NCBI RefSeq assembly: GCF_020179405.1
Contig: NZ_JAICBZ010000041.1
Coordinates: forward strand, 1-36,081
Direction: 5' to 3'
DNA: 36,081 nt
Origin: Xinfangfangia pollutisoli
GTDB lineage: Bacteria > Pseudomonadota > Alphaproteobacteria > Rhodobacterales > Rhodobacteraceae
In this document: piece after piece, positions 1 to 23,935 of the stretch
Position numbering within the stretch: position 1 is the first letter of the stretch
Layout: each line of letters begins with the position of its first letter
The notes under the pieces: model-generated
What the model saw: the letters and a program-made list of their open reading frames with translations, nothing else
Told to the model about the DNA's origin: nothing
Database searches by the model: none
Made by a program: the position numbers and the translations under genes

Positions 1-584
1 GCCGCGGGCAGGGGCGGGGCCGGCAGCGCCGCGGCAAAGGCCAGGGCACCTTCGGTCAGCGGCCCGTCGATCACCCGGTCGATCAGCCCCAGCTGCGCCG
101 CGCGGGCACTGTCCAGCATCTGGCGTTCGGCGATCACCGGGATCGCCGCCTCAAGCCCGATCAGCCGCGGCAGCCGCTGCGTGCCGCCGGCGCCGGGAAT
201 GATGCCCAAAGTGACCTCGGGCAGGCCCAGGGTCGCCCCGGGCGCCGCAACCCGGAAGGCGCAGCCCAGCGCCAGTTCCAGCCCGCCGCCCAGCACCTGG
301 CCATGCAGCGCCGCGATCCAGGGCTTGGCCGAGGTCTCGATCCGGGCGATCAGATCGGGAAGAACCGGGGCTTCGGGCGGCCGGTCGAATTCGGCGATAT
401 CGGCGCCGCCGATGAACAGCCGCCCCGCCCCGCGCAGCACCACGGCCGAGACCGAGGCGTCGCCCTCCAGCTGCTGGGCCAGGGCCAGAAGCTGGACGCG
501 AATCGCGGTGCCAAGGGCGTTCACCGGCGGGTTGTCGATGGTCAGGACGGCGATGCTGCCGTGGCGGTCAAGCGAGACGGGCAT
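1..584 (-). CDS. Enoyl-CoA hydratase/isomerase-domain protein, partial (probably the N-terminus of a FadB/FadJ-like bifunctional enzyme)
   Basis: This is the N-terminal 194 codons of a crotonase-fold protein that runs off the left edge of the window. The ATG is at 584, after a GGAAAG ribosome site, 35 nt downstream of the CoA-transferase gene. Visible crotonase features are an N-terminal beta strand with NPPVNAL, the oxyanion-hole segment GGADIAEF, the HGQVLGGGLELAL loop, and LPEVTLGIIPGAGGTQRLPRL with its catalytic-type glutamate. This is the hydratase step of beta-oxidation: trans-2-enoyl-CoA to 3-hydroxyacyl-CoA. From memory of the family, this kind of N-terminus is common in alphaproteobacterial fusions to a 3-hydroxyacyl-CoA dehydrogenase. 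The C-terminus is outside the window, so a fusion is inferred only. It is the last visible gene of the minus-strand importer operon. Confidence 0.85.
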   Translation of the reverse strand, partial: MPVSLDRHGSIAVLTIDNPPVNALGTAIRVQLLALAQQLEGDASVSAVVLRGAGRLFIGGADIAEFDRPPEAPVLPDLIARIETSAKPWIAALHGQVLGGGLELALGCAFRVAAPGATLGLPEVTLGIIPGAGGTQRLPRLIGLEAAIPVIAERQMLDSARAAQLGLIDRVIDGPLTEGALAFAAALPAPPLPA

Positions 585-619
585 GGGAACTTTCCGGGTG
601 GGTTGGGGCAGGGAACAGA

Positions 620-1870
620 TCAGGCGCGGGCGTTGGCCAGGCCGCGCTCCGTGCCGGGTGCAAGATCGCGGCAGGCGATCACGCCCTTGGCCTGCAGCGC
701 CGCGATCCGGGCCGGATCAAGCCCCAGCACTTCGGCCAGAACGCTGCGCGTGTCTTCGCCCAGCAGCGGCGGCGCCTTCGCGGCGCGGCCCTGCTGCGCG
801 GCCAGCCCCTGGGCGGGACGCACCAGCCGCACCGGGCCCAGTTCGGGATGCTGCAGCGTCTGCACCACGCCGCGTTCGACCACCGACTTCGCCGACAGCG
901 CCTCGGCCACCGTTTTCACCGGCCCGGCCGGCACATCGGCGGCAAGGCAGGCCTGCAGCCAGTGGTCCGAGCTTCGGGTCGGCAGGATCTCTTGCAGGAT
1001 GTCCAGCAGATCTTGCCGGTGCAGCGCCCGCTGATGCGAGGTCACGAAGCGCGGGTCCTGCGCCAGATCGGGGCGCTGGATCACCCTTTCGCAGAAATCG
1101 ACGAACATGCGGTCATTGCCCACCGCCAGCGCGAAGGCGCCATCCGAGGCGGCGAACAGCTGATAGGGCACCACGGTCGGATGGGCATTGCCATAGCGTT
1201 CGGCCTGGACCCCGGCATTCAGATGGGCGGTGCCGACATTGATCAGCAGGTTCAGCGTCGAATCCAGCAGCGCCACGTCGATGAACTGGCCCTCGCCGGT
1301 GTCGCGGCGCTGATACAGCGCAGCCAGCACCGACTGGGTCGCCACCATGCCCGCCACGACATCGGTGAAGGCCACGCCCAGCCGGTTGGGCGGCCCGTCC
1401 GCCTGGCCGGTGATCGCCATCAGCCCGCTTTCGGCCTGCATGATGAAATCATAGCCGGGCCGCTTCGCCTCGGGCCCGGTCTGGCCATAGCCCGAGATCG
1501 AGCAATAGACGACGCCCGGGTTGATCCTGCGGATGTCCTGATAGCCGATGCCCAGCCGGTCGACCGTGCCGGCGCGGAAGTTTTCAACCACCACATCGGC
1601 GCGGGCGGCCAGATCCAGCACGATGGCCCGGCCTTCCGGGGCCTTCAGATCCAGGGCGACGCTGTGCTTGCCGCGATTGGCACACAGGTAATAGGTGCTG
1701 ACGCCCTTGTAATTCGGCACCGACCAGGCGCGGGTATCGTCGCCGCCCTTGATGTTCTCGATCTTCCAGATCTCGGCGCCCATGTCGGCCAGGCTCATGG
1801 TTGTCCAGGGCCCGGCGAGGACCCGGGTCAGGTCCAGCACCTTGATGCCCTCCAGCGGCAGGGTCTGCAT
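620..1870 (-). CDS. CaiB/BaiF family (class III) CoA-transferase
   Basis: A 416-aa class III CoA-transferase, the family of formyl-CoA, carnitine-CoA and succinyl-CoA:acid transferases. It moves CoA from one acyl-CoA to a free acid through an aspartyl anhydride. The start at 1870 ([21 protein letters not shown]) is preferred because it has a GGGAGAGGAAG ribosome site and the usual family N-terminus. The open frame extends about 43 codons further upstream but lacks family sequence. Seen: the Rossmann-like [19 protein letters not shown] segment, the [12 protein letters not shown] motif, and D170 in AFTDVVAG, which matches the catalytic Asp169 region of formyl-CoA transferase. It lies 26 nt after the ABC ATPase gene in the same operon, so it probably activates the imported substrate or an intermediate. 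The acid it uses cannot be read from the sequence. Confidence 0.9.
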
Positions 1871-1896
1871 CGGTCTTCCTCTCCCTCTGTGCCCGT

Positions 1897-2907
1897 TCAG
1901 CCGGCCGCGGCCAGGCCCGTCTGGCGGGCGCTGGGAAAGTGGCAGGCGACGGCATGGCCCTGGTCGGTATCGGCCAGAGGCGGTTCCTTCTCGGCGCAAA
2001 CGGCCTGTGCGATCGGGCAGCGCGTGCGGAAACGGCAGCCGGATGGCGGGTTCATCGGGCTTGGCACATCGCCCTTCAGCAAGATGCGCGTCCGGCTGCG
2101 TTCGCGTGGCGGATCGGCCAGCGGCACGGCCGACATCAGCGCCTGGGTGTAGGGATGCAGCGGCGCGGTATAGAGCCGGCGCTTGTCGGCCACCTCGACG
2201 ATCTTGCCCAGATACATCACCGCCACCCGGTCCGAGATGTGCTGCACGACCGACAGGTCATGGGCGATGAACAGGAAGGCAGTTCCGAATTCGCGCTGGA
2301 TGTCCTTCAGCAGGTTCAGCACGCCCGCCTGCACCGACACGTCCAGCGCCGAGACCGGCTCGTCCAGCACCAGAAGATCCGGGCGCAGGGCCAGCGCGCG
2401 GGCGATGACGACCCGCTGTCTTTGCCCGCCCGACAGGGCATGCGGATAGCGGTCGCCATGTTCGGGGTTCAGCCGCACCAGATCCAGCATCTCGGCCACG
2501 CGGCGCTTGCGCGCGGCAGGGTCCAGATCGCTGATGCGCAGCGGTTCGGCGATGTTCTCGGCCACCGTCATGCGCGGATGCAGCGAGCCATAGGGATCCT
2601 GGAACACCAGCTGGATCCGCCGCCGCAGCTGGCGCATCTCGGCCGGGGCCAGCGTGTTGATATCGGTGCCGCGGAACAGGGTCTGGCCGGCGCTCGGCTC
2701 GATCAGGCGCAGGATGCAGCGGCCGAGCGTCGATTTTCCGCAGCCGGATTCGCCCACCAGGCCCAGCGTCTCGCCCGGAGCCACGTCGAAGGACACCCCG
2801 GCCACGGCATTGACCTGGCCGATGTCGCGTTCGATCAGCAGCCCGCCCTTGACGGGAAAGCGCTTCACCAGATTGCGGACGGAAAGGATGGGATCGGGCG
2901 GGGTCAT
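1897..2907 (-). CDS. Peptide/opine-type ABC transporter ATP-binding protein (DppF/OppF-like)
   Basis: A 336-aa cytoplasmic ATPase that powers uptake through the two permeases encoded upstream. Seen: Walker [10 protein letters not shown] at residues 52-60, Q-loop Q103, signature LSGGQ at 158-162, Walker B LLVLDE at 178-183, and the C-terminal oligopeptide-transporter extension ([14 protein letters not shown]), which contains spaced cysteines. The start ATG at 2907 overlaps the stop of the neighbouring ATPase gene in an ATGA, so the two are translationally coupled. With that partner it forms the usual DppD/DppF heterodimer. The family imports di- and oligopeptides, opines, nickel chelates, glutathione and other amino compounds. 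Here the catabolic neighbours suggest a carbon or nitrogen source and not general peptide scavenging. Confidence 0.93.
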
Positions 2908-3893
2908 GCGGCGCTCTCCGGGGCCGAGAAGGCGAAATGGCAGGCGGCGCTGTGGTCGGGCAGATGGCGGACGGGCGGCGTTTCGCGCCGGCAGATGTCC
3001 TGGGCCACGACGCAGCGCGGGTTGAAGGGGCAGCCTTCCGGCAGGCGGCCCAGCGCGGGCGGCGTGCCGTCGATGGAAAACAGCCGGTCCTTCTCGACCG
3101 TCATGTCCGGGATCGAGGCGATCAGCCCGCGGGTGTAGGGGTGGCCCGGGCGGGCGAACAGATCGTCGACCCCGGCCTGTTCCACCACCTGCCCGGCATA
3201 GACCACCGCCACCCGGTCGGCATGGCCGGCCAGCACGCCCAGATCATGGGTGATCAGGATCAGCCCCAGCTTCAGCCGCGCCTGCAGATCGGCCAGAACC
3301 TCCATGATCTGCGCCTGCACCGTCACGTCCAGCGCCGTTGTCGGCTCGTCGGCGATCAGCAGGTCGGGGTCATTGGCCACCGCCATCGCGATCATCACCC
3401 GCTGCCGCATCCCGCCCGAGAATTCATGCGGATATTGCTGCAGCCGCCGGTCGGGCTGCGGAATGGTGACCAGCGCCAGCAGATCCTTCGCCCGGTCCAG
3501 CGCCGCGCGCTTCGACAGATCGGGATTGTGCAGCCGCACCGCCTCGGCGATCTGGGCGCCCACGGTCATCACCGGGTTCAGCGAGGACAGCGGATCCTGG
3601 AAGATCATCGCGATGCGCGCGCCGCGCAGGGCGCGCAGCTCGCGGCGCGGCAGGCCCACCAGCTCGCGCCCCTTGAACTTCACCGACCCGGTCACCCGCG
3701 CGCCTTCGGGCTGCAGACCCAGCGCAGCCAGCATGCCGACCGATTTGCCCGAGCCGGATTCGCCCACGATTCCCAGCACTTCGCCATGGTCGACCTGCAG
3801 GCTTACGCCCCGCACCGCTTCGGAATAAAAGCCGTTCCGGCCGAAGGCCACGCGCAGATCGCGCACCTCGAACAGGGGGGGATGCGCGCTCAT
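2904..3893 (-). CDS. Peptide/opine-type ABC transporter ATP-binding protein (DppD/OppD-like)
   Basis: A 329-aa ATPase partner of the DppF-like protein. The start is the ATG at 3893 ([18 protein letters not shown]), which overlaps the permease stop codon as ATGA. An in-frame extension up to 4145 overlaps the permease gene and is rejected. Seen: Walker A GESGSGKS at residues 44-51, Q-loop in [10 protein letters not shown], signature FSGGMRQRV, Walker B LLIADEP, H-loop in LITHDLGV, and the C-terminal oligo_HPY-type segment [15 protein letters not shown]. The signature has Phe in place of Leu, as is common in DppD/OppD. It is encoded in one tightly overlapping unit with both permeases, so the transporter core is complete apart from the binding protein. 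Confidence 0.93.
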
Positions 3894-4729
3894 TTGGACC
3901 TCGGATCGAAATAGTCGTGCAGGCCGTCGCCGATGAAGTTGAAGCCCAGGACGATGGTCAGGATCGCCAGGCCCGGGCCCAGCGCGACCCACCAGGAATA
4001 GAATTGCGACGCCCCGTCCGAGATCATCGAGCCCCATTCCGGGGTCGGCGGCGTGGCCCCCAGCCCGATGAAGGACAGCGAGGCGGCCAGCAGGATGACC
4101 TGGCCCAGATCCATGGTCGCGCTGATCAGCACCGGCGTCCAGCACAGCGGCAGGATATGCTTGGTCAACACCCGCGACCGGGTGGCGCCCGAGGCGATGG
4201 CCGCCTCGACATGTTCACGTTCGCGCACTTCCAGCACCTGGGCGCGCATCAGCCGCGCATAGACCGGCCACCAGACGATCACCATGGCGACGGTCGCATT
4301 TTCAAGCCCCGGCCCCAGCGAGGCGGCAACGGCCATGGCCAGAAGCATCGGCGGAAAGGACAGGGTGATGTCGACCAGCCGCATGATCACCGTATCGACG
4401 AAGCCGCCGATGAAGCCGGCCAGCGCCCCCAGAACGGCGCCGATCGCCACGGCAACGGCGACGACGGTCACCGCGATCGGGATGGAATGGCGCGCGCCGT
4501 GCAACACCCGGCTCAGCACGTCGCGGCCCAGGGCATCGGTGCCCAGAAGATGCTCCCAGCTGGGCGGCTGCAGACGGCGCCCGACCATGTCAAGCGGGGC
4601 GAAGCCCGACATCCAGGGTGCCGCGACCGTGGCGACAAGCCAGAACAGGATCAGCGCGATGCCGACGATCAGCGGGGCGGTCAGCCAGCGCGGGCGCGAG
4701 ATCCGGCGAGGGGAAGGGATGGCGGTCAT
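3890..4729 (-). CDS. ABC transporter permease (DppC-like)
   Basis: A 279-aa inner-membrane permease of the peptide/nickel family. Seen: a cytoplasmic N-terminus with RPRWLTAPLIVGIALILFWL leading into the first membrane helix, the short N-terminal domain typical of DppC (LLGTDALGRDVLSRVLHGAR), several hydrophobic helices, and the EAA-type coupling loop around AAIASGATRSRVLTKHILP. Its length is close to the family norm. It is separated from the upstream permease gene by 3 nt and overlaps the downstream ATPase gene by 4 nt, so it belongs to one polycistronic message. It is expected to pair with the DppB-like protein to form the translocation path. Confidence 0.92.
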   Translation of the reverse strand: MTAIPSPRRISRPRWLTAPLIVGIALILFWLVATVAAPWMSGFAPLDMVGRRLQPPSWEHLLGTDALGRDVLSRVLHGARHSIPIAVTVVAVAVAIGAVLGALAGFIGGFVDTVIMRLVDITLSFPPMLLAMAVAASLGPGLENATVAMVIVWWPVYARLMRAQVLEVREREHVEAAIASGATRSRVLTKHILPLCWTPVLISATMDLGQVILLAASLSFIGLGATPPTPEWGSMISDGASQFYSWWVALGPGLAILTIVLGFNFIGDGLHDYFDPRSK

Positions 4730-4732
4730 GGA

Positions 4733-5746
4733 TCAGCCGAGCCTCACGCGGGGGTTGGCGACGACATAGGCGATGTCGGTCAGCAGGTTGGTGACAAGGA
4801 AGACGACGCCGCCCACGATGGTGACGCCGATGATGGCCGGAAAATCCAGGCCGCGCGCCGCATCGACGGCATAAGAGCCCATGCCCGGCCAGGAGAAGAT
4901 CGTCTCGGTCAGCACGGCGCCGGTCAGCAGATAGGCGAAGGAATAGCCGATGACCGTCAGCGTCGGCACCATGGTGTTGCGCAGCGCATGGCGGATCACC
5001 ACGCGGAACTCTCCGGCGCCCTTGGCGCGCGCGGTCAGGATGAATTCGCGCGACAGGATCTCAAGCATATTGGCGCGGACCAGGCGCGAAATCGTGCCGG
5101 CCACCGCCCAGCCCAGCACGAAGGCGGGCAGGATCAGATGCCAGACCGCATCCAGGAACAGGCGGAGATTGCCGGCAAGCAGCGTGTCGATGGTCATGAA
5201 GCCGGTCACCAAGGGGGGCGGTGTCGCCCGCGCATCCAGCCGTCCGGGCCCGGGCAGCACGCCCCATTGCACCGAAAAGACGTAAAGCAGCGCCAGGCCC
5301 AGCCAGAAGACCGGGATGGACGAGCCGAACAGCGCGAAGACCCGGGCGGCGTGGTCGATCACCGTATTGCGGAAATAGGCGGCCAGCACGCCCAGGCTGA
5401 TGCCGATCGTCGCGCCCACGACCATGGCCGCCATCACCAGTTCCATCGTCGCGGGCAGGCGGTACAGCACATCCTGCGCCACCGGCCGGCGGGTGATGAA
5501 AGAGGTGCCCATGTCGCCGGTCAGCAGATTGCCGACATAGATGACGTAGCGTTCCGGCAGGCTGCGATCGAGGCCCCATTTCGCCTTGGCCGCCGCCACG
5601 ATCTCGGGGTTGTTCATCTGCCGGTCCGACACGATGGCGGTCAGCGGATCGCCCTTGGTGACGCTGGTCAGCAGGAAGGCCAGGGTCACGATCCCCAGCA
5701 CCAGGAACGGCATCGCGATCAGGCGGCGCAGGATATAGCGGGTCAT
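4733..5746 (-). CDS. ABC transporter permease (DppB-like), first gene of the importer operon
   Basis: A 337-aa inner-membrane permease. Seen: the classic DppB start MTRYILRRLIAMPFLVLGI, a large first periplasmic region (NNPEIVAAAKAKWGLDRSLP) as in DppB/OppB, about six hydrophobic helices, and the coupling loop TARAKGAGEFRVVIRHALR. The end GLDFPAIIGVTIVGGVVFL with a following NLLTDIAY is typical. It opens the minus-strand operon dppB-dppC-dppD-dppF-CoA-transferase-hydratase. The substrate-binding protein is not next to it; the only candidate lies at 13577-15175, inside the aminotransferase operon. Its promoter would lie in 5747-5902, which is shared with the divergent IclR-family gene and contains a palindrome. 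Confidence 0.92.
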   Translation of the reverse strand: MTRYILRRLIAMPFLVLGIVTLAFLLTSVTKGDPLTAIVSDRQMNNPEIVAAAKAKWGLDRSLPERYVIYVGNLLTGDMGTSFITRRPVAQDVLYRLPATMELVMAAMVVGATIGISLGVLAAYFRNTVIDHAARVFALFGSSIPVFWLGLALLYVFSVQWGVLPGPGRLDARATPPPLVTGFMTIDTLLAGNLRLFLDAVWHLILPAFVLGWAVAGTISRLVRANMLEILSREFILTARAKGAGEFRVVIRHALRNTMVPTLTVIGYSFAYLLTGAVLTETIFSWPGMGSYAVDAARGLDFPAIIGVTIVGGVVFLVTNLLTDIAYVVANPRVRLG

Positions 5747-5798
5747 TTGGCCTGGATTTCCTCGTCTTGCAGGTTGGTTCCGCCGTCTTGTGACGGTT

Positions 5799-5828
5799 AC
5801 TATTGACAGCCGGCAGCCAAGTCGTCAA
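5799..5828 (-). promoter_or_regulatory. Candidate sigma70-type promoter of the importer operon
   Basis: Read on the minus strand, TTGACG (5828-5823) is followed after 18 nt by AATAGT (5804-5799, four of six consensus bases). Transcription would start near 5792, about 45 nt before dppB. The palindrome at 5834-5850 would then lie just upstream of the -35. This is pattern matching only, and such matches can arise by chance. Confidence 0.4.
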
Positions 5829-5831
5829 CAT
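5803..5831 (+). promoter_or_regulatory. Candidate promoter of the IclR-family regulator gene
   Basis: TTGACA (5803-5808, a perfect -35) is followed after 17 nt by CAACAT (5826-5831, three of six). A better -10, CATAAT (5829-5834), lies at a long 20-nt spacing. Either choice places the 5834-5850 palindrome at or just after the -10, around the transcription start, which would suit autorepression by an IclR-type protein. The promoter overlaps the divergent importer promoter. Confidence 0.35.
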
Positions 5832-5833
5832 AA

Positions 5834-5850
5834 TTGAAATTAAGTTTCAA
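5834..5850. promoter_or_regulatory. Candidate IclR-family operator palindrome (site 1)
   Basis: Perfect 6-bp inverted arms TTGAAA / TTTCAA are separated by five bases (TTAAG). The TGAAA-N5-TTTCA layout matches the KdgR-type operator of the IclR family as I remember it. It agrees at 10 of 14 defined positions with the E. coli IclR consensus TGGAAATNATTTCCA. It sits in an unusually AT-rich patch between the divergent importer operon and the gene for an IclR-family protein. It shares a G.AATTAA.TT.CA core with the palindrome at 11289-11305. Confidence 0.55.
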
Positions 5851-5902
5851 ATATTAGCGCCAGCCGGAAAACACGCCGAAGAAAGTAAGATCGGGGAAAA
5901 AG

Positions 5903-6727
5903 ATGCGGAAAAGGGCGCTGCCTGTAGACGGAACCGAGCCGATCGAGGCCAGCAATCCTGCGGCCTCGCTGACCCGCGGGCTAGAGATCCTGCGGTCCTT
6001 CACCGCCAGTGATTCGACCCTGGGCAATCAGGAACTGATCGAGCGGACGGGCCTGCCCAAGGCCACGGTGTCGCGGCTGACCGCCACGCTGGTGGCGCTG
6101 GGCTATCTGCATTACGACACCCAGCTTGGCCGCTACAGCATCGGTCCTGCGACCGTGTCGCTGGGCTATTCCGCGCTCAGCTCCAGCGCGGTGGTGCAGA
6201 TGGCGCAGCCGATCCTGCAGGATCTGGCCGATCGCTCGGGCGTTGCCACGGCTTTGGGCACGCGCGACGGGCTGGAGATGGTCTATCTGGCCAACTATCG
6301 CTCGCAAAGCCCGGTCTCGCTGCGGCTGAATGTCGGGTCGCGCCTGCCGATCTGGCGCACGGCGATGGGGCTTGCCTATCTGGCCGAGATGCGGACCGAG
6401 GCCCGCGACGAGGTGGTGGCCCAGATCGTCGCCCGCGCGCCCGATCAGGAAGCGCGGCTGCGCGCGACGCTGGACGAGGCGCTGGAAAGTTATGCAACGC
6501 TGGGTTTCGTGGCCACGTTCGGCACCTGGTACAGCTATATCAACGCGGTCGGCATCGCCTTCCGCCCGACCGATGGCTCGCCGCTGGTCGCCATCACCTG
6601 CGGCGGCATTGTCGACATCATCCCGCGCGAGGTGTGCCTGTCGCGCGTGGGCCCCGATCTGGTTCATGCCGCGGCCCGGCTGCGCGCCCGGCTGAACGGC
6701 GACCCCAATCCCGTTCCCGCCCCCTAG
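5903..6727 (+). CDS. IclR-family transcriptional regulator
   Basis: A 274-aa DNA-binding regulator. Residues of about 22-80 form the winged helix-turn-helix (SLTRGLEILRSF, then NQELIERTGLPKATVSRLTA and the wing YDTQLGRYSIG). The remainder is the IclR ligand-binding domain with its usual segments (VATALGTRDGLEMVYL, LPIWRTAMGLAYLAEM, SPLVAITCGG). The start at 5903 follows GGGGAAAAAG. It is transcribed divergently from the importer operon and is 33 nt upstream of the AcoC-like gene, so the two are probably cotranscribed. It is the only regulator in the island and most likely controls it in response to the substrate or an intermediate. Whether it activates or represses cannot be told from sequence. 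Palindromes fitting its family occur at 5834-5850 and 11289-11305. Confidence 0.93.
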   Translation: MRKRALPVDGTEPIEASNPAASLTRGLEILRSFTASDSTLGNQELIERTGLPKATVSRLTATLVALGYLHYDTQLGRYSIGPATVSLGYSALSSSAVVQMAQPILQDLADRSGVATALGTRDGLEMVYLANYRSQSPVSLRLNVGSRLPIWRTAMGLAYLAEMRTEARDEVVAQIVARAPDQEARLRATLDEALESYATLGFVATFGTWYSYINAVGIAFRPTDGSPLVAITCGGIVDIIPREVCLSRVGPDLVHAAARLRARLNGDPNPVPAP

Positions 6728-6760
6728 GCCTCAGCGCCGCTTCGCCCGGCAACCAAGGAC

Positions 6761-8077: not shown

Positions 8078-8084
8078 GGATGAA

Positions 8085-8108
8085 AAACGGGCGCCGCGGC
8101 GCCCGTTT
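8085..8108. terminator. Bidirectional terminator between convergent genes
   Basis: A perfect 24-bp palindrome with 12-bp arms (left arm AAACGGGCGCCG) lies in the 54-bp gap between the converging AcoC-like gene (ends 8077) and the aldolase gene (ends 8132). The palindrome itself supplies a GC-rich stem flanked by A and T runs on both strands, so it can serve both directions, although the T-runs are only three long. Confidence 0.7.
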
Positions 8109-8131
8109 CCGTGCCGCGAAGGGACCCGCGC

Positions 8132-10047: not shown

Positions 10048-10050
10048 CGG

Positions 10051-11193
10051 TCACCCCTGAGCGCACATGTCGCGCGCGATGATGATCTGCTGGATCTGCG
10101 ACGTTCCTTCGTACAGACGGAACAGCCGCACGTCGCGGTAGAAATGCTCGACCGGGTAGTCTTCCATATAGCCCGCGCCACCATGGATCTGCACCGCCCG
10201 GTCGGCCACGCGCCCCACCATTTCCGAGCAGAACAGCTTGCAGGACGCCGCCTCGCGGATGATCCGCTCGCCGCTGTCACAGCGCCGCGCGGCGTCGATC
10301 ACCATGCAGCGCCCGGCATAGGTTTCGGTCGCGCAATCGGCCAGCATGGCCTGGATCAGCTGGTGGTCGCAGATCCGTTTGCCGAATTGCACCCGCTGGG
10401 TGGCAAAGCCCGTCGCCTCGTCGCAGAGGCGCTGCGCCTGGCCGACGCAGAAGGCCGCGATATGCAGCCGGCCGCGGTTCAGCACCTTCATCGCGGTCTT
10501 GAAGCCCAGGCCCTCGACCCCGCCGATCACCGCATCGGCCGGGATCCGGCAATTGTCCAGGATCACGTCGCAGGTCTTGGTGCCGCGCTGACCCATCTTG
10601 CGGTCGGGCGGGCCCAGGGTCAGGCCCGGGCTGTCGGCCGGCACCAGAAAGGCGGTCACGCCCGCGGGGCCCGGCCCGCCGGTGCGGGCCATCAGGGTAA
10701 AGACATTGGCAACCGGCGCATTGGTGATGAAGCGCTTGGTCCCGTTCAGGATATACTGGTCGCCATCGCGCCGGGCGGTGGTCTTGACCGATCCGGCATC
10801 CGATCCGACATCCGGCTCGGTCAGGGCAAAGGCCCCGATCACCTCGCCCGAGGCCAGGCGCGGCAGCCAGTATTGCTTCTGCGCCTCGGTTCCGTCGGCG
10901 ATGATCCCCTGCGCGCCGATGCCGTTATTGGTGCCGAAGACCGACCGGAAGGCGGCCGAGGTATAGCCCAGCTCAAGCGCCACCAGCACCTCTTCCTCGA
11001 CCGTCAGGCCAAGCCCGCCATAGGCTTCGGGAATCGACAGGCCGAACAGGCCAAGCGCCCGCATCTCGTCGATGATCGCGGGCGGGATGGCGTTGCTCTG
11101 TTCCACCGCGGCTTCGGCGGGAACCAGGCGTTCGCGCACGAAACGGCGGATGGTTTCCACAAGCCCTGCAAGGACTTCTGCATCTCGAATCAT
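10051..11193 (-). CDS. Acyl-CoA dehydrogenase family protein
   Basis: A 380-aa FAD flavoenzyme that would introduce a trans-2 double bond into an acyl-CoA and pass electrons to ETF. Seen in order: the N-terminal helical domain, GLFGLSIPEAYGGLG, the FAD/substrate segment FALTEPDVGSDAGSVKTTA, FITNAPVANVFTLMART, DRKMGQRGTKTCDVILDN, IQIHGGAGYMEDY-like VQIHGGAGYMED, and RLYEGTSQIQ. The last contains E362, the catalytic base position of short and medium-chain enzymes. It is the first gene of the minus-strand unit with kinase and aldolase, and diverges from the E1 fusion. The ribosome site is weak (GACGA). It supplies the dehydrogenation step that the hydratase-domain protein at 1-584 would follow. 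The chain length or branching of its substrate cannot be read here. Confidence 0.93.
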   Translation of the reverse strand: MIRDAEVLAGLVETIRRFVRERLVPAEAAVEQSNAIPPAIIDEMRALGLFGLSIPEAYGGLGLTVEEEVLVALELGYTSAAFRSVFGTNNGIGAQGIIADGTEAQKQYWLPRLASGEVIGAFALTEPDVGSDAGSVKTTARRDGDQYILNGTKRFITNAPVANVFTLMARTGGPGPAGVTAFLVPADSPGLTLGPPDRKMGQRGTKTCDVILDNCRIPADAVIGGVEGLGFKTAMKVLNRGRLHIAAFCVGQAQRLCDEATGFATQRVQFGKRICDHQLIQAMLADCATETYAGRCMVIDAARRCDSGERIIREAASCKLFCSEMVGRVADRAVQIHGGAGYMEDYPVEHFYRDVRLFRLYEGTSQIQQIIIARDMCAQG

Positions 11194-11243
11194 CGGTCGT
11201 CTTGCCCTTTGTCACCAGGGTGAACCCGGCGTGAAGATTTCTG

Positions 11244-11271
11244 TTGCGCGAAAAGGCTGGCACGGCTTAAT
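11244..11271 (+). promoter_or_regulatory. Candidate promoter of the E1-binding protein-aminotransferase operon
   Basis: TTGCGC (11244-11249) and CTTAAT (11266-11271, four of six consensus bases) are separated by 16 nt. This predicts a start near 11278, with the palindrome at 11289-11305 just downstream, a repression-compatible position. No comparably clear promoter was found for the divergent acyl-CoA dehydrogenase gene in 11194-11360. Confidence 0.35.
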
Positions 11272-11288
11272 GTTCGGTTCAAGCGAAA

Positions 11289-11305
11289 ACGGAATTAATT
11301 TCCAC
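11289..11305. promoter_or_regulatory. Candidate IclR-family operator palindrome (site 2)
   Basis: The core CGGAATTAATTTCCA (11290-11304) matches the E. coli IclR consensus TGGAAATNATTTCCA at 12 of 14 defined positions. Its GGAA / TTCC arms are separated by TTAAT. Aligned with site 1 at 5834-5850 it is identical at 11 of 17 positions. It lies in the 167-bp divergent region between the acyl-CoA dehydrogenase and E1 operons. The match to consensus is seen; binding by the local IclR protein is inferred. Confidence 0.6.
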
Positions 11306-11360
11306 AAAAGCGAATCCCACCCCGGCAGGGCCGGGGCCAGGGATCACAGAAGGACTGAAG

Positions 11361-13535
11361 ATGCCGCACCGGATTCCGCTTTCTCCCATGGCACCGTGGT
11401 TTCGGCTGGAAGCGGATCTCGCCGATTGGCAGGCCGAAAAGCCGGCTGATCTGGTGCATTGGTACGGCCAGATGCTGCTGATCCGCCGCTTCGAGGAAAA
11501 GCTGCTGGAGCTTGAGAAGGCCGGGCTGATCCACGGCCCCGCGCATGCCTCGATCGGGCAAGAGGCCGGCGCCGTGGGCGCGATGTCCTGTCTCGGGGCC
11601 GAAGACCGGATCAACGGCACCCACCGCGCCCATCATCAGGTGCTGCTGAAGCTGGTCAATGCGGTCACGCCCGCCGGCTTCGACGTGCTGAACGACGATT
11701 TCACCGCCGAGATGGACGCGGCGCTGCACCGTTTCATGGCCGAGATCATGGGCCTGGAGCTGGGCTATTGCGGCGGCCGCGGCGGGTCGATGCACATGCG
11801 CCATGCCGCGGCCGGAATCATGGGCACCTCGGCCATCGTGGGCGGCAACCCGCCGCATGCCGTGGGCTATGCGCTGGCCGACAAGATGCTGGGCCGCGAT
11901 CAGGTTTCGGTCGCCTTCTTCGGCGATGGCGCGGCGCAGAACGGCGCCAGCTACGAGGCGATGAACATCGCCGCCGCACAGGGCGTGCCGACGATCTTCT
12001 TCATCGAGAACAATCTTTACGGCGTCGCGACCCGGCTGACCGAGATCACCCGGGAAAGCCGCATCTCGTCACGCGGGGCGATGTTCGGCATCCCCTCGAT
12101 CGAGGTTGACGGGATGGATGTGGTGGCGGTTCACAACGCCATGGCCGAAGCTCGTCGCATCATCGCGGCCGAAGGCGGGCCGGTGGTGATCGAGGCGCTG
12201 CTTTATCGCCATTTCCACCAGTCGGGCAGCCGCAAGGGCAGCGATTTCGGCTATCGTCCGACCGAGGAAGAGGCCGAATGGCTGGCGCGCGACCCGGTGA
12301 CGACCACCGCGGCGCGGCTGCGCGAGATGGGGATCCTCAGCGCCGAACATCTGGCGCAGATCGACAGCGCGGTGACCGGCCGGGTCGCGGCGGCGGCGGC
12401 GAAGCTGACCGAAACCGTGCCGGGCGGCAATGCGCTGCGCATCCCGGATGCGCTTTGGCCCGATCCGGCCTCGCGCGATGTGGGGATCCTGGGCGATCTG
12501 TCCGAACTGGCCGACAGCCGGATCGTCGATCATGCCGACCGGGCGGGGCGGCCGACCGAGCGGGTGAAATTCGTCACCGCCGCCTCCGAGACGCTGGCCG
12601 CGGCGATGGACCGCGATCCGCGCATCATCGTGATGGGCGAGGATGTCCACCAGATGCGCGGCGGGGTGTCGGGCTTTACCAAGGGGGCGCTGGAACGCTG
12701 GCCGGGCCGGGTTCTGCCGATGCCGATTGCCGAGAACGGCTTTACCGGCGTGGCGCTGGGCGCGGCGCTGAACGGGCTGCGCCCGGTGGTCGAGATCATG
12801 TTCGGCGACTTCTGCTTTACCGCCGCCGACCAGATCGCCCATGGCGCGGGCAAGGTGCGGCACATGTTCGGCTCGGGCTTTCCGGTGCCGCTGGTCATGC
12901 GGGTGCGCGTCTCGCCGCATACCGGCTATGGCTCGCAGCATTCCACCGATCCCTCGGCGCTGTTCGGCCTGTTCCCCGGCTGGCGCATCGTCAGCCCAAC
13001 CACGGCGCATGACTATATCGGCCAGATGAATGCCGCGCTGCGCTGCGACGATCCGGTGGTGATCATCGAGCATACCGAATTCTACCAGCGCGAATTCGAA
13101 GTGCCCGCCGGTGACCGCGATTTCATCATTCCCTTCGGCAAGGCCCATTGCGTGCGGCCCGGCACGGCCTGCACGGTTCTGGCCACCTCGGCCATGGTCG
13201 GCCAGGCGGTCAAGGCGGCCGAACAGACGGGGGTCGACGCCGAGGTGATCGACCTGCGCAACCTCGACCATCACGGCATCGACTGGGAGATGATCGGCGC
13301 CTCGATCGACCGCACGGGCCGGGTGATCATCGCCGAACAGACCGCCCGCAGCATGTCGATGGGCGCAACCTGGGCCGATGGCATCCAGGCGCGCTTCTTC
13401 GACAGTCTGGATCACGAAATCCTGCGCGTGACGGGCGGGCTTGCTGCGCCCACCGTCTCGGCAGTGCTGAATCGCGCCGCCCTGGCTTCGGCGGCGGATC
13501 TTGGCGAAGCGCTGCTTCGCATCACGGCCAACTAA
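11361..13535 (+). CDS. Thiamine-diphosphate-dependent 2-oxo acid (or acetoin-type) dehydrogenase E1, alpha and beta subunits fused
   Basis: A 724-aa protein that joins E1-alpha and E1-beta in one chain. Residues of about 30-350 are the alpha part: YGQMLLIRRFEEKL, the GTHRAHH loop, GGRGGSMHM, and the ThDP/Mg motif GDG at 188-190 with NN at 217-218. Residues of about 395-724 are the beta part: ETLAAAMDRDPRIIVMGED, ENGFTGVALGAALNGLRPV, DQIAHGAGKVRHM and SPHTGYGSQHS. Such enzymes take a 2-oxo acid or an acyloin, transfer the acyl group to lipoyl-E2 and make acyl-CoA. The likely E2 is the AcoC-like protein at 6761-8077, which suggests an acetoin-dehydrogenase-like complex. The start at 11361 follows AGAAGGACTGAAG. 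It leads the plus-strand operon with the binding protein and two aminotransferases, so its substrate may be a transamination product. Confidence 0.9.
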   Translation: MPHRIPLSPMAPWFRLEADLADWQAEKPADLVHWYGQMLLIRRFEEKLLELEKAGLIHGPAHASIGQEAGAVGAMSCLGAEDRINGTHRAHHQVLLKLVNAVTPAGFDVLNDDFTAEMDAALHRFMAEIMGLELGYCGGRGGSMHMRHAAAGIMGTSAIVGGNPPHAVGYALADKMLGRDQVSVAFFGDGAAQNGASYEAMNIAAAQGVPTIFFIENNLYGVATRLTEITRESRISSRGAMFGIPSIEVDGMDVVAVHNAMAEARRIIAAEGGPVVIEALLYRHFHQSGSRKGSDFGYRPTEEEAEWLARDPVTTTAARLREMGILSAEHLAQIDSAVTGRVAAAAAKLTETVPGGNALRIPDALWPDPASRDVGILGDLSELADSRIVDHADRAGRPTERVKFVTAASETLAAAMDRDPRIIVMGEDVHQMRGGVSGFTKGALERWPGRVLPMPIAENGFTGVALGAALNGLRPVVEIMFGDFCFTAADQIAHGAGKVRHMFGSGFPVPLVMRVRVSPHTGYGSQHSTDPSALFGLFPGWRIVSPTTAHDYIGQMNAALRCDDPVVIIEHTEFYQREFEVPAGDRDFIIPFGKAHCVRPGTACTVLATSAMVGQAVKAAEQTGVDAEVIDLRNLDHHGIDWEMIGASIDRTGRVIIAEQTARSMSMGATWADGIQARFFDSLDHEILRVTGGLAAPTVSAVLNRAALASAADLGEALLRITAN

Positions 13536-13576
13536 AAAAACGGATCGAATCAGGTCCACCAACAGGAGAAGGTCAC

Positions 13577-15175
13577 ATGCTATTCAAAGGTTTGGTTCCA
13601 AGGGCCGGCATTCTGTCGCTTGCGGTCGCTGCGGCCGCGTTCGGCATGATCGCGCCGCCGGCAAAGGCCGAGGAGAAGGCGCTGGTCATCGCCCGCGACC
13701 TTGACATCAACGCGCTCGACCCGGCGCGGGTCTGGTGCGACACCTGCCAGATCTATGCCACCTCGGTCTATGAACAGCTGGTCACGCTGGACAAGGACAA
13801 CAAGCTGCAGCCGCTGCTGGCCGCCAGCTGGACGGTCAACCCCGAACAGACGGTCTTCACCTTCACCCTGGACCCGGCGGCGAAATTCTCGGACGGCTCG
13901 CCGGTCGAGGCGAAGGATGTGAAATGGTCCTTCGAGCGGCTGAAGAACATCAAGGGCAATGCGGCCTTCATCGCCGACCCGATCAGCCATATCGACACGC
14001 CCGATGCGCAGACCGTGGTGATCACCCTGACCGCGGCCAATTCGGAATTCCTGAACCAGGTCGCCGCGGGCTTTCTGGGCGTGATCAACAGCGATGTGGC
14101 GGCCGAAAACGGTGCCCTTGCCGATGAGACGGCGGCCGAGAAGGACACGTCCGAGACCTGGTTCCTGTCGCATTCTGTCGGCAGCGGCCCCTTCGTGCTG
14201 GCCAATTACGAGCCGAACGCCGAATTGCGGCTGAAGCGGAACGAAAACTACTGGCGCGCCAAGCCCGCGGTGCCCGAGGTGATCTTCCGCCAGGTGAAGG
14301 ATGCGGTCGCGCAGGCGCAGATGCTGCAATCGGGCGAAGTCGACATCGCCATGCAGATCGACCCCGAAACCGCCAAATCGCTGGAAGGCTCGGATGCGGT
14401 GGTGGAACGGGTGCCCTCCTACAACTTCATCTACATCGCGCTGTCGCCGGGGGCGAAGGCCACGCCCATCGACATGACGCCCGACGTGCGCGAGGCGATT
14501 TCGATCGCGATCGATCGCACCGCGCTGATCGACTTCACCCTGGGCGGCGACGGGCGCGCGCTGGCGGCACCGATCCCGCTGGGCTTCCCCGGTGGCGATG
14601 GCCATCAGGTGCCCGAATACAATCCCGACAAGGCGAAAGAGATTCTGGCGGCGGCGGGGCTTGAGGCGGGTTTCACCCTGCAGACCATCTATCCCGACCT
14701 GAACGTCTATGGGGTGGATTTCAACCTGATGATGCAGAAGATCCAGCAGGATCTGGCCAAGGTCGGCATCGCGCTGGACCTGCAGCCGGTGCCCTTCGCC
14801 AACTGGCGTGAAATCGCGAATGGCGACCATATCCCGCTGACTGCGGTGTTCTTCGCCCCCGATTTCTTCGGCAGTTCGCAATATCTGGACGTGTTCGGCA
14901 TGCAGGACGGCTCGGTCTGGGCCAAGCGCGCCGGGGGCGACAAGGACCCGACGCTGATCAACCCGCGGGCGGGTGAGCTGAAGGCGGCGGCGCTTGCGGC
15001 CGCGACCCCGGACGAGGCCGAGAAGCTGTGGTTCGAAGCCGCGGAAGAGATGATCAAGAACCGCATCATCATTCCGATGGTCAGCCCCGACCTGATCCTG
15101 GCCTATGGCCCGCATGTGAAGGGCGTGCGCTACAGCGCCTGCTGCAACCTGCCGCTGGCCGAAATCAGCAACTGA
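13577..15175 (+). CDS. Periplasmic substrate-binding protein of a peptide/opine-type ABC transporter (SBP family 5)
   Basis: A 532-aa exported binding protein. The start at 13577 has a strong AGGAGAAGG site; the upstream open frame overlaps the E1 gene and is rejected. Residues 1-31 form a signal peptide (basic MLFKGLVPR, a hydrophobic stretch, cleavage after PAKA). No lipobox cysteine is present, so it is soluble and periplasmic. Mature features of family 5 are ALVIARDLDINALDPARVW, YEQLVTLDKDNKLQPLLAASW, FTLDPAAKFSDGSPVEAKDV, VGSGPFVLANYEPNAEL, and a C-terminal domain. It lies 41 nt after the E1 gene. It is the only binding protein in the window and probably serves the permeases and ATPases encoded at 1897-5746. 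The CDTC pair in VWCDTCQIY, near the expected pocket side, may be of interest. Confidence 0.92.
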   Translation: MLFKGLVPRAGILSLAVAAAAFGMIAPPAKAEEKALVIARDLDINALDPARVWCDTCQIYATSVYEQLVTLDKDNKLQPLLAASWTVNPEQTVFTFTLDPAAKFSDGSPVEAKDVKWSFERLKNIKGNAAFIADPISHIDTPDAQTVVITLTAANSEFLNQVAAGFLGVINSDVAAENGALADETAAEKDTSETWFLSHSVGSGPFVLANYEPNAELRLKRNENYWRAKPAVPEVIFRQVKDAVAQAQMLQSGEVDIAMQIDPETAKSLEGSDAVVERVPSYNFIYIALSPGAKATPIDMTPDVREAISIAIDRTALIDFTLGGDGRALAAPIPLGFPGGDGHQVPEYNPDKAKEILAAAGLEAGFTLQTIYPDLNVYGVDFNLMMQKIQQDLAKVGIALDLQPVPFANWREIANGDHIPLTAVFFAPDFFGSSQYLDVFGMQDGSVWAKRAGGDKDPTLINPRAGELKAAALAAATPDEAEKLWFEAAEEMIKNRIIIPMVSPDLILAYGPHVKGVRYSACCNLPLAEISN

Positions 15176-15182
15176 TCCTGCG

Positions 15183-15208
15183 GGGGGCGCCTTCCGGGCG
15201 CTCCCTTT
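15183..15208 (+). terminator. Intra-operon hairpin after the binding-protein gene (possible partial terminator or mRNA stabiliser)
   Basis: GGGGGCGCC and GGCGCTCCC pair over nine positions (one G-U) around a five-base loop, followed by only TTT. It lies just after the binding-protein stop and before the aminotransferase start. In many importer operons a 3' hairpin here protects the binding-protein mRNA so that it outnumbers downstream products. I infer the same role; the short T run argues against full termination. Confidence 0.5.
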
Positions 15209-15232
15209 CCCATGCCCGTCAGAGAGACACCC

Positions 15233-16477
15233 ATGACAGCCCTTCTCGGCAATTCCCGCGACCTCGCCCTGCAAGCCCGGGCGCAGCAGGTCATCCCCAA
15301 TGGCATGTGGGGCCATATGGCCACCCGGGCCATCGCGCCCGGCTATCCGCAATTCTTCTCGCGCTCGGACGGCTGCCGGGTCTGGGATGCCGATGGCAAT
15401 GACTATATCGACTTCATGTGTGCCTGGGGGCCGAACCTGCTGGGCTACCATCATCAGCAGGTCGATGCGGCGGCGCTGGCGCAGTTGCAGGCGGTCGATT
15501 CCGGCAATGGCCCGACCGAGGCGCTGGTCGAACTGGCCGAGCTGATGACCGCGACGGTCGACCATGCCGACTGGTGCCTGTTCCAGAAGAACGGCACCGA
15601 TGCCACGACGGTCTGCGTCACCATCGCCCGCGCCGCCACTGGCAAGCGCAAGGTGGTGATGGCAAAGGGCGCCTATCACGGCGCGGTGCCCTGGTGTTCG
15701 CCCTCGGTCGTGGGCGTCACCGCCGAGGACCGGGCCCATCTGATCGCATTCGACTGGGGCGACAGCGCCAGCCTTGAGGCCGCCGTGGCCCAGGCCGGCG
15801 ACGATCTGGCCGCGATCATCCTGACCGCCTTCCGCCACGATGTGGGGCGCGATCAGGAACTGCCCAGCCAGGCCTTCCTGCAGTCGGCCCGCGCCCTGTG
15901 CGACCGGACCGGCGCCTTGCTGATCTGCGACGATGTGCGGGCCGGCTTCCGGCTCGATTTGCGCGGCAGCTGGGCGCCCCTGGGCGTGAAGCCCGACCTT
16001 GCCGCCTATTCCAAGGCCATCGCCAATGGCTGGCCGCTGGCGGCGGTCGCCGGGGCCGACCGGGCGCGCGAGGGGGCGGCGAAGATCTTCACCACCGGAT
16101 CCTTCTGGTATGGCGCCGCGGCGATGGCGGCCGGTGCCGCCACGATCCGCATCCTGCGCGAAACCGATGCGCTGGCCCATATCGAAGCCATGGGCAACCG
16201 CCTGCGCAAGGGCCTGGACGAGGCCGCGGCCCGGCATGGCTACCGGCTGCGCCAGACCGGCCCGGTGCAGATGCCGATGGTGCTGGTCGATGGCGACCAG
16301 GATCTGCGCATCGGCAATGCGCTTTGCCTGGCGGCGTTGCGCCAGGGGGTGTTCCTGCACCCGAAGCACAACATGTTCCTCTGCGCGGCCCATATGCCCG
16401 ACGATATCGACCGCGCGGTCGAGGGCGCCGACAAGGCCTTCGCCGAGATCGCCGCCGCCGGCATCGTGCCGGCCTGA
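15233..16477 (+). CDS. Class III (HemL-like) PLP-dependent aminotransferase
   Basis: A 414-aa fold-type I enzyme of the glutamate-1-semialdehyde aminotransferase-like branch. Start 15233 (MTALLGNSRDLALQ) is preferred over the in-frame ATG at 15212, which lacks any ribosome site; AGAGAG precedes 15233. Seen: DADGNDYIDFMCAWGPNLLG, FQKNGTDATTVCVTIARAATGK, KGAYHGAVPW, the PLP-anchoring D233 in ICDDVRAGFRL, and catalytic K261 in AYSKAIANGWPLAAVAG. The FDEV motif of the family reads CDDV here. A true HemL is unlikely because the gene sits in a catabolic operon and lacks the strict GSA-aminotransferase motifs I would expect. It may be an omega- or beta-amino-acid transaminase, or possibly an aminomutase. 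It is paired with a class IV aminotransferase 21 nt downstream. Confidence 0.88.
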   Translation: MTALLGNSRDLALQARAQQVIPNGMWGHMATRAIAPGYPQFFSRSDGCRVWDADGNDYIDFMCAWGPNLLGYHHQQVDAAALAQLQAVDSGNGPTEALVELAELMTATVDHADWCLFQKNGTDATTVCVTIARAATGKRKVVMAKGAYHGAVPWCSPSVVGVTAEDRAHLIAFDWGDSASLEAAVAQAGDDLAAIILTAFRHDVGRDQELPSQAFLQSARALCDRTGALLICDDVRAGFRLDLRGSWAPLGVKPDLAAYSKAIANGWPLAAVAGADRAREGAAKIFTTGSFWYGAAAMAAGAATIRILRETDALAHIEAMGNRLRKGLDEAAARHGYRLRQTGPVQMPMVLVDGDQDLRIGNALCLAALRQGVFLHPKHNMFLCAAHMPDDIDRAVEGADKAFAEIAAAGIVPA

Positions 16478-16498
16478 CCGCAGCCGCAGGGAAGCCCG

Positions 16499-17461
16499 AT
16501 GTCCTATACAGATCACATCTTTGCCGCCTATCGCCAGCGCCTGGCCGCGCTGGAGCAAAGCCCGAACCCCTTCGCCCGCGGCATCGCCTGGGTCGGCGGC
16601 GATTACGTGCCGGTGGCCGAGGCGAAGATCCCGCTTCTGGATCAGGGCTTCCTGCATTCCGACCTGACCTATGACGTGCCGGCGATCTGGAATGGCCGGT
16701 TCTTCCGGCTGGACGACCATCTGGACCGGTTCGAGGCCAGCCTGAAGAAGCTGCGGCTGCAAAGCCCGATTCCGCGGCACGAGATCCGCGACCGGCTGGT
16801 CGAGATGGCGGCGAAAAGCGGCATCCGCGACGCCTATGTGATGATGATCGTGACGCGCGGCCTGCGCTATGTGCGCCAATACGCGCCCGAGGACTGCCAG
16901 AATTTCTGCTATCTGATGGTCACGCCCTATCTTTGGGTCATGGGCGAAGAGGTGCAGAAGACCGGCGGCTCGGCGATCATCGCCCGCACGGTGCGCCGCA
17001 TCCCGCCGGGGGCGATGGACCCGACGGTGAAGAACCTGCAATGGGGCGATTTCACCCGCGCGATCTTCGAGGCGCGCGACCGCGGCGCGATGTATCCGAT
17101 CCTGACCGACGGCGATGCGAACCTGACCGAGGGGTCGGGTTTCAATGTCGTGCTGGTCAGGGACGGCCGGCTCTACACGCCACGGCGCGGCGTTCTGGAA
17201 GGCGTCACCCGCAAATCGGTGCTTGAGGTGGCCGATGGGCTGGGCCTGCCCTGGGTGATCGACGATATCCCGGTGCAGATGGCCTATGACGCCGACGAGA
17301 TCCTGTTCGTCACCACCGCGGGCGGGGTGATGCCGATCACCACGCTGGATGGGCAACCGGTGGGTGACGGGCAGGTCGGCCCGATCAGCCAGGCGCTGTG
17401 GAAGGGCTATTGGGATGCGCATTCCGACCCGGACCTGAGCTTCGCCATCGCCTATGACTGA
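16499..17461 (+). CDS. Class IV PLP-dependent aminotransferase resembling (R)-selective amine transaminases
   Basis: A 320-aa fold-type IV enzyme. Seen: [42 protein letters not shown], catalytic K178 in [12 protein letters not shown]211 in [40 protein letters not shown] and [11 protein letters not shown]. Compared from memory with the Arthrobacter (R)-amine transaminase (ATA-117 parent), both share the NP-x-A-x-G-x-AW start, the LHSD-x-TY motif in place of the branched-chain aminotransferase version, RR-x-P-x(3)-DP-x-VKN-x-QWGD, and the closing TTAGGV. Branched-chain or D-amino acid aminotransferase activity remains possible. It is the last gene of the plus-strand operon and converges on tamB. 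No substrate has been read directly from the sequence. Confidence 0.9.
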
Positions 17462-17475
17462 CTGACGGGCGTCAG
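17462..17475 (+). terminator. Weak hairpin at the end of the aminotransferase operon
   Basis: CTGAC and GTCAG pair around GGGC, followed by TAATCCTTTTCC. It begins directly after the aminotransferase stop and overlaps the end of the converging tamB gene. The stem is only five to six base pairs and the T-rich tract starts six bases later, so it may be weak. Confidence 0.3.
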
Positions 17476-23900: not shown

Positions 23901-23929
23901 TTGCAGACTCGGCCCTGCGCGCGTATATC
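23901..23929 (+). promoter_or_regulatory. Promoter of the rimP-nusA-ylxR-infB operon
   Basis: TTGCAG (23901-23906), a 17-nt spacer and TATATC (23924-23929) form one of the best sigma70-type matches in the window. A start near 23936 gives a leader of about 85 nt before the rimP ATG at 24021. Confidence 0.65.
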
Positions 23930-23935
23930 CGCATT

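Follow-up and report, generated by a model that had tools for sequence, protein, structure and literature searches.

The stretch analysed here, termed the window, is the whole of contig NZ_JAICBZ010000041.1 (C125; 36,081 bp) of the 4.41 Mb genome of Xinfangfangia pollutisoli. Positions 1–17461 are occupied by four facing transcription units, which the original prediction, made from the sequence letters alone, had described as an IclR-controlled island for the catabolism of an amino compound. Families were assigned by scans with Pfam and NCBIfam hidden Markov models (HMMs), in which every named part scored above the Pfam gathering cut-off. Unit 1 (3–5746, minus strand) comprises a hydratase-domain protein (3–584; PF00378), a CaiB/BaiF class III CoA-transferase (620–1870; PF02515, 420 bits), the ATPases of OppF type (1897–2907; NF008453, 411.1 bits against a cut-off of 408) and OppD type (2904–3893; PF00005, PF08352), and the permeases of DppC type (3890–4729; PF00528) and DppB type (4733–5746; PF00528, PF19300). 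Unit 2 (5903–8077, plus strand) encodes an IclR-family regulator (5903–6727; PF09339, PF01614) and an AcoC-type E2 with lipoyl, E3-binding and alpha/beta-hydrolase domains (6761–8077; NF011457; PF00364, PF02817, PF12697). Unit 3 (8132–11193, minus strand) encodes a class II aldolase that is nearer to L-fuculose-1-phosphate aldolase (FucA) than to OtnC by model scores (8132–8785), an OtnK-like DUF1537 kinase (8776–10047; PF07005, PF17042; NF043035) and an acyl-CoA dehydrogenase (ACAD) of short/medium-chain type (10051–11193; PF00441, PF02770, PF02771). Unit 4 (11361–17461, plus strand) consists of a fused, thiamine diphosphate-dependent E1 alpha/beta protein (11361–13535; PF00676, PF02779, PF02780), a family 5 solute-binding protein (SBP) of Dpp/Nik type (13577–15175; PF00496, 266.8 bits), a FumI-like class III aminotransferase (AT3; 15212–16477; best solved relative 6hbs) and a class IV aminotransferase resembling (R)-amine transaminases (AT4; 16499–17461; best solved relative 6xu3). 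The predicted parts list of importer, two aminotransferases, E1 fusion with AcoC-like E2, CoA-transferase, ACAD and kinase/aldolase is thus borne out by the HMM matches, as are the four facing units.

The codon-position G + C content (third position above 0.8, second below 0.6) marked 13 of the 15 frames as coding; the aldolase (0.79) and SBP (0.78) frames, both listed from upstream starts, narrowly missed the mark. At 6761–8077 both strands carry the mark, and the match to the AcoC model settles the case for E2; the long antisense frames are put down to the high G + C content.

What had been called a hydratase-domain protein does carry a hydratase domain, but it is only the N-terminal 194 aa of a longer, FadJ-like fusion of enoyl-CoA hydratase (ECH) and 3-hydroxyacyl-CoA dehydrogenase (HAD), broken by the contig end. 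In ten relatives of the cluster the hydratase frame is open for 648–687 aa (810 aa in one), and the fusion protein of locus L028, the only relative whose domains were scanned, has HAD domains. Contig C180 of the same genome starts within such an ECH/HAD fusion, followed by an aldehyde dehydrogenase (ALDH) and an AroE-like protein and, further on and on the other strand, by an EutQ-like cupin, a flavin amine oxidase and a second binding protein. Since C180 begins inside the fusion and L028 shows the identical gene order fusion–ALDH–AroE, the left operon of C125 seems to run on into C180 across a gap of approximately 0.3 kb.

Relatives of the cluster were gathered via E1, yielding 15 loci from a scan of genome contigs and six plasmid records (E1 identity 77.9–79.1%), four of which were included. 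Joint conservation of the units had been set beforehand as the test of the prediction, and it was found: in the 16 relatives with long enough stretches (L009, L011–L015, L017–L019, L021–L023, L075, L076, L081, L082), E1 (by selection), E2, SBP, OppD, OppF, DppB and DppC are each present in all 16, which is well beyond chance for E1, E2, SBP and importer together. The kinase also occurs in 16 of 16, on the same stretch or contig (approximately 11 kb from E1 in L015), and CaiB in 15, the contig of L011 ending ahead of the CaiB position. IclR and AT4 were each detected in 15 of the 16, AT3 and ACAD in 14 and the aldolase in 13, and all 16 have at least one of the two aminotransferases. The short contigs L010, L016 and L020 match the cluster as far as their sequence extends; L010 and L016 are probably identical records to contigs of genomes G003 and G007. 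More distantly, L088 (E1 identity 63%) keeps the importer, CaiB, ALDH, aldolase, kinase, AT3 and SBP. In L011 the SBP gene lies in two overlapping pieces (11016–12598), reflecting a frameshift or an assembly error.

Host organisms belong to Rhodobacter, Fuscovulum, Tabrizicola, Pseudorhodobacter, Paracoccus, Falsigemmobacter, Xinfangfangia, Ancylobacter, Aestuariivirga, Shinella, Agrobacterium, Sinorhizobium and Rhizobium and include a Rhodospirillaceae strain. The distribution is patchy: among 99 other relatives searched, E1 was present at 77–88% identity in two of the 12 of the same genus, and a genome of the same family contained one E1 homologue (50%) in another gene context. Carriage on plasmids and varying flanks suggest horizontal spread of the cluster. 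Next after the island in Agrobacterium sp. T29 come ThuA, a glutathione transferase and a set resembling dimethylamine monooxygenase (L076:22171–26644).

The palindrome YGRAATTWWDTTYCA is common to both divergent promoters of the island, as candidate operator A (TGAAATTAAGTTTCA, 5835–5849) in the gap between DppB and IclR and candidate operator B (CGGAATTAATTTCCA, 11290–11304) in the gap between ACAD and E1. The pattern was found twice in the window and not at all in 100 shuffles, and the whole genome contains exactly two copies, one per divergent promoter of the cluster (reversed control, 0). Including the window, it is present in 16 of 17 A and 19 of 20 B regions; as the pattern was derived from these same promoters, the counts in relatives measure conservation and are no independent test, the genome-wide count being the stronger evidence. 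The sole miss in both sets is L015, whose locus has no IclR gene. In L015 and L021, E1 directly follows E2, leaving B regions of 42 and 118 bases, and that of L021 still carries the site. Elsewhere in 1.65 Mb of partly overlapping DNA, matches fell in the same promoters in further loci of the window's own genome, G003 and G007, in the A promoter of G007 (L035), upstream of the L029 thiolase and in the L088 E1 promoter. The co-occurrence of IclR gene and palindrome, both missing from L015, points to IclR as the putative binder of the two sites. On the basis of the computed gene families, the conservation of the cluster and the common operator-like site in both divergent promoters, we read the island as one regulon, and there is good support for its description as IclR-controlled and devoted to the catabolism of an amino compound. 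In L017 an amine oxidase and an EutQ-like cupin are located between ACAD and E1 (7863–10000), with one copy of the palindrome on each flank.

Both aminotransferases are, by sequence, closest to amine-type enzymes. Among solved structures, AT3 scored best against 6hbs (“aminopentol aminotransferase”; 440 bits, 49% identity over 399 residues; runner-up 162 bits), which we take to be FumI. These scores place AT3 in the FumI clade, apart from the glutamate-semialdehyde aminomutases, and in a tree of 33 rows, none of them an aminomutase, FumI fell within the AT3 family but in a different subclade from the AT3 of the window. According to PMC2933618, FumI converts hydrolysed fumonisin B1 to a 3-hydroxy-2-ketone, the 2-amino group passing to pyruvate. 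Three further proven FumI-type enzymes are given as 61.9–74.2% identical to the two known ones in PMC9858248; the AT3 of the window, at 49%, is FumI-like in sequence. A search for an Arg or Lys in AT3 that might bind a distal carboxylate revealed three columns differing between the cluster and the FumI clade, which prove nothing in the absence of a structure. AT4 scored best against 6xu3 (609.7 bits, 80% identity), presumably an (R)-selective amine transaminase, and is in sequence nearest to solved fold class IV amine transaminases. Thirteen further chains scored 413–482 bits, mostly bearing amine, omega- or (R)-transaminase names and a few D-amino-acid- or branched-chain-related names; the next 12 (256–280 bits) are named as (R)-amine or branched-chain transaminases, and the remainder reached at most 177 bits. 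The AT4 encoded in the Shinella HZN7 cluster shares 96.8% identity with 6xu3.

The original prediction had ordered the parts as uptake, transamination, production of an acyl-CoA by the lipoyl complex and beta-oxidation, with kinase and aldolase handling a hydroxylated fragment. Read as an ordinary amino-acid route, in which an amino acid is transaminated to a 2-oxo acid that E1/E2 decarboxylates to an acyl-CoA, this order was also our first idea; it was set aside on account of the nearest solved relatives of the aminotransferases and the acetoin-type E2. The proposed order thus has partial support: uptake and amine removal by transaminases are retained here, and the 2-oxo-acid step is doubted. 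E1 is a single chain of 724 aa with alpha and beta parts fused, and E2 exceeds the cut-off of the AcoC model (NF011457; 368.2 against 307 bits). Because E2 is of acetoin type, we favour cleavage of an alpha-hydroxyketone by E1/E2 over decarboxylation of a 2-oxo acid. The amino-acid route appears unlikely. The class III and class IV aminotransferase folds, the pyruvate dehydrogenase-type E1, the branched-chain aminotransferase names of some solved AT4 relatives (at 256–280 bits and one at 427) and a Dpp-type importer that fits peptides or amino acids would all suit it, but the nearest solved relatives of AT3 and AT4 are amine enzymes, a CoA-transferase and an ALDH would be superfluous if the complex yielded an acyl-CoA directly, and L053 and L083 have a split transketolase in the place of E1/E2.

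The latter two loci belong to a set of 24 contexts of FumI-like genes outside the main cluster, which come from samples spanning the class (12 other genomes with matches) and the phylum (8, one of them shared) and from five of the 16 plasmid records with matches. Thirteen stretches from 10 of the same genomes, none from plasmids, served as controls. Some contexts are near kin: L055 and L056, and likewise L089, L090 and L091, share genera, and L057 and L092–L094 share a family. The query panel was partly drawn from loci that it scored. In L053/L069 a FumI-like gene and a similar importer are accompanied by a split transketolase replacing E1/E2, an acyl-CoA ligase replacing CaiB, separate ECH and HAD genes and a thiolase. 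L083 likewise has a split transketolase together with a FumI-like gene and this type of importer, and L057 has a split transketolase and a FumI-like gene but no such importer. In total, split transketolases were found in 3 of the 24 contexts (L053, L057, L083; 2 of 23 without the query donor L083) and in none of the 13 controls. Transketolase is another thiamine enzyme that splits ketols, and its standing in for E1/E2 in variant clusters supports ketol cleavage as the chemistry of this step.

A kinase together with a class II aldolase adjoins the FumI-like gene in 7 of the 24 contexts (L053, L060, L079, L080, L088, L092, L093) and in none of the 13 controls. The kinase is of the DUF1537 family in three of them and of the PfkB family in four; the aldolase query came from the window and the PfkB queries from L060 and L079, whose PfkB hits are self-matches, those of L092 and L093 being at 45%. 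Only L088 of the seven also shows E1. Since the pair recurs beside FumI-like genes in six stretches without E1, it appears to be an alternative route for cleaving the product of transamination and not a late side step. The window's aldolase scored 186.7 bits with the FucA model and 108.5 bits with that of OtnC, with 7x78 as best solved relative, and the kinases of L080 and L088 exceed the OtnK cut-off. An OtnK/OtnC-type sugar-acid pathway was rejected as the core of the island, given the FucA-like aldolase and the association of the pair with FumI-like genes. In Novosphingobium capsulatum (L079:5474–19246) a PfkB kinase, class II aldolases, a P450, an ALDH and a TonB receptor are located near the FumI-like gene.

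Further fused E1 genes (L077, L078, L085, L086; 45–49% identity) form a second group with other E2 partners, and three of these four loci contain AroE-like genes (L077, L085, L086) and short-chain (SDR) dehydrogenases; they probably represent related ketol-cleaving pathways for other substrates.

Amide hydrolases occur near the FumI-like gene in 11 of the 24 contexts (9 of 22 when the query donors L080 and L083 are left out) and in 1 of the 13 controls, which hints that the free amine may derive from an amide. None was detected among the 19 window proteins scanned. On two plasmids of Variovorax paradoxus (L083:12001–25212, L087:11989–22199), FumI-like genes lie together with a Dpp-type importer and amide hydrolases, namely a penicillin acylase family member and an amidase on one and an N,N-dimethylformamidase-like enzyme on the other.

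For the lower steps, the presence of ALDH and a CoA-transferase suggests that the substrate of beta-oxidation is more likely the acid formed from the liberated aldehyde than a product of the lipoyl complex, and that beta-oxidation ends at a thiolase of 3-oxoadipyl-CoA type. Thiolase genes adjoin the cluster in L009, L012, L019/L029, L023/L030, L076 and, incompletely, L010. All five cluster-linked thiolases scored, which do not include the incomplete one of L010, exceed the PcaF cut-off of 597 bits (647–708 bits). The L069 thiolase stays below it (538), but its score with another 3-oxoadipyl-CoA thiolase model lies above the cut-off (668 against 622). As the linked thiolases score as 3-oxoadipyl-CoA thiolases, the acid probably has six carbons and two carboxylates, like adipate, and the imported molecule would then carry a distal carboxylate, which would suit a zwitterion-binding Dpp-type importer.

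Taken together, the island may be one IclR-controlled regulon that degrades a vicinal amino-alcohol, to which we assign a probability of roughly 0.48 for the route as a whole. We infer the reactions, their order, the binding of the regulator and the substrate from the gene content. The substrate would be a small amine in which the carbon adjoining the amino carbon bears a hydroxyl, comparable to the head of a sphingoid base or a fumonisin, and probably with a distal carboxylate. After uptake by SBP and the Dpp/Opp importer, AT3 or AT4 would replace the amino group by a keto group, which yields an alpha-hydroxyketone. This ketol could be cleaved to an acyl-CoA and an aldehyde by the fused E1 together with the AcoC-type E2; if further hydroxyls are present, the DUF1537 kinase and the FucA-like aldolase could instead yield a triose-phosphate-type product and an aldehyde. 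The putative ALDH on C180 would oxidise the aldehyde to an adipate-like acid, CaiB would attach CoA, and ACAD and the ECH/HAD fusion would beta-oxidise the acyl-CoA to 3-oxoadipyl-CoA. The order amine, ketol, cleavage, acid, CoA ester and beta-oxidation is suggested by the replacement of individual steps by unrelated enzymes in other clusters. A shortened, omega-carboxylated C8 sphingoid base (HOCH2 or CH3-CH(NH2)-CH(OH)-(CH2)4-COOH) would fit each step. A wider proposal, that this is a general strategy for vicinal amino-alcohols with a distal carboxylate, is doubtful: transaminases of two unrelated folds would be followed by splitting of the ketol, either by an acetoin dehydrogenase-like complex (transketolase in other lineages) or by kinase and aldolase, and by passage through an adipate-semialdehyde-like aldehyde to 3-oxoadipyl-CoA.

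Several observations weigh against the vicinal amino-alcohol route. No E3 was detected by the HMM scans among the cluster proteins of the window, and the AroE-like, amine oxidase, cupin and ThuA genes have no assigned role in it. Best model matches of three enzymes stay below their cut-offs, with 258.3 against 350 bits for the kinase (OtnK, NF043035), 470 against 646 for ALDH (succinate-semialdehyde dehydrogenases) and 348.8 against 750 for CaiB (succinate-glutarate CoA-transferase, NF052585, the best NCBIfam model). No thiolase was found in the window or the C180 stretch, nor nearby in several relatives, and the best PcaF-like thiolase of the window's own genome (75%) has a neighbourhood that is pca-like by eye, with an IclR-like gene. 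ALDH was detected in 9 of 13 testable relatives and not in L015, L017, L019 and L081 (1.9 kb seen in L081). The aldolase is absent from L017, L023 and L081, and AT3 from L021 and L081. L088 shows no E2, IclR, ACAD or AT4 in the 19.5 kb seen, and the palindrome upstream of its E1 is thus present with no IclR gene in this stretch. L021 lacks ACAD and the ECH/HAD fusion in addition to AT3; from L015, IclR, ACAD, AT4, ALDH and the fusion are missing, and a module of kinase, aldolase and AroE genes lies approximately 11 kb from E1, next to another importer. The losses in L021 and L015 and the displaced module of L015 indicate that modules can separate.

The same observations bear on the alternative that two or three independent pathways share one regulator and are co-induced because the source material holds all their substrates, namely one pathway for the amine and ketol, one for sugar acids (kinase, aldolase, AroE-like) and one for dicarboxylates (CaiB, ACAD, ECH/HAD, thiolase). 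The module of L015 with an importer of its own, the missing ACAD and ECH/HAD of L021, the three loci without aldolase and the resemblance of the kinase to OtnK would be expected from such a bundle. On the other hand, the pairing of kinase and aldolase near FumI-like genes recurs with kinases of two unrelated families, the aldolase resembles FucA and not OtnC, and the kinase shares the stretch or contig in all 16 relatives, so that independent pathways seem somewhat improbable. Catabolism of a vicinal diamine such as 7,8-diaminononanoate or a different compound with the biotin skeleton is chemically conceivable, in that two aminotransferases of opposite selectivity, one here being of the (R)-amine transaminase family, would remove both amines, E1/E2 would split the diketone or ketol and the dicarboxylate would be beta-oxidised up to the dicarboxylate-type thiolases, but it is very unlikely given that L021 and L081 (AT4) and L015 (AT3) each have a single one of the two aminotransferases, that the diaminononanoate skeleton would yield pimelate instead of adipate, and that no sulfur-handling gene was noticed in the stretches read, in which no search was aimed at one.

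The enzyme families that would carry the vicinal amino-alcohol route are known, and their combination and the likely route are new to us. No description of this gene combination was found in the literature searched (top-ranked results and few subscription papers), which is weak evidence of novelty. The island shares a FumI-family class III aminotransferase (49% identity to 6hbs) with the fumonisin catabolism of Sphingopyxis sp. MTA144 (FumD, FumI) but has a Dpp-type importer and no esterase among the 19 window proteins scanned. It resembles the acetoin dehydrogenase system (AcoABC) in E1 and an E2 with an alpha/beta-hydrolase domain that scores above the AcoC cut-off. In that system AcoA and AcoB are separate and E3 is in the operon, whereas the E1 of the island is fused, the cluster has no E3 and E1/E2 is embedded among aminotransferase, importer and beta-oxidation genes. 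A DUF1537 kinase and a class II aldolase-family enzyme are also found in the OtnK/OtnC pathways for four-carbon acid sugars; in the island the kinase stays under the model cut-off (258 of 350), the aldolase is nearer to FucA and the pair is linked to an amine transaminase. The beta-oxidation of adipate and 3-oxoadipate, represented by the lower steps of dca, paa and pca, has CoA activation, ACAD, ECH, HAD and a 3-oxoadipyl-CoA-type thiolase (here in relatives) in common with the island, which adds amine removal, chain splitting and ALDH ahead of these steps, employs a CaiB-type transferase and has its thiolase outside the window.

Both (R)-selective amine transaminases and enzymes of FumI type are in use or in demand for biocatalysis and mycotoxin clean-up, and we know of no established natural role of the former. 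Relatives of both enzyme types adjoin in one conserved regulon, and 6xu3, known here as a sequence only, is almost identical to the copy in the Shinella cluster. AT4, 80% identical to 6xu3, is encoded within a defined regulon, and the natural role of such transaminases becomes testable through the inducer of one IclR regulator with two candidate operator sites. If the vicinal amino-alcohol route is true, it would provide a natural role for both (R)-selective amine transaminases and FumI-type enzymes. Repeated swaps of unrelated enzymes at one step may also serve as a guide to pathway chemistry.

To the right of the island are tamB/tamA and rimP–nusA, housekeeping genes unrelated to it. The adjoining genes on the opposite strand (17472–22873) are homologues of tamB and tamA. 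Flanks examined in other carriers differ, so the insertion point varies. The region 23901–36081 contains rimP and nusA (identified by HMM) and, by eye only, an infB-like frame (26953–29553) and mutT-like, argJ-like, peptidyl-prolyl isomerase-like and secA-like frames.

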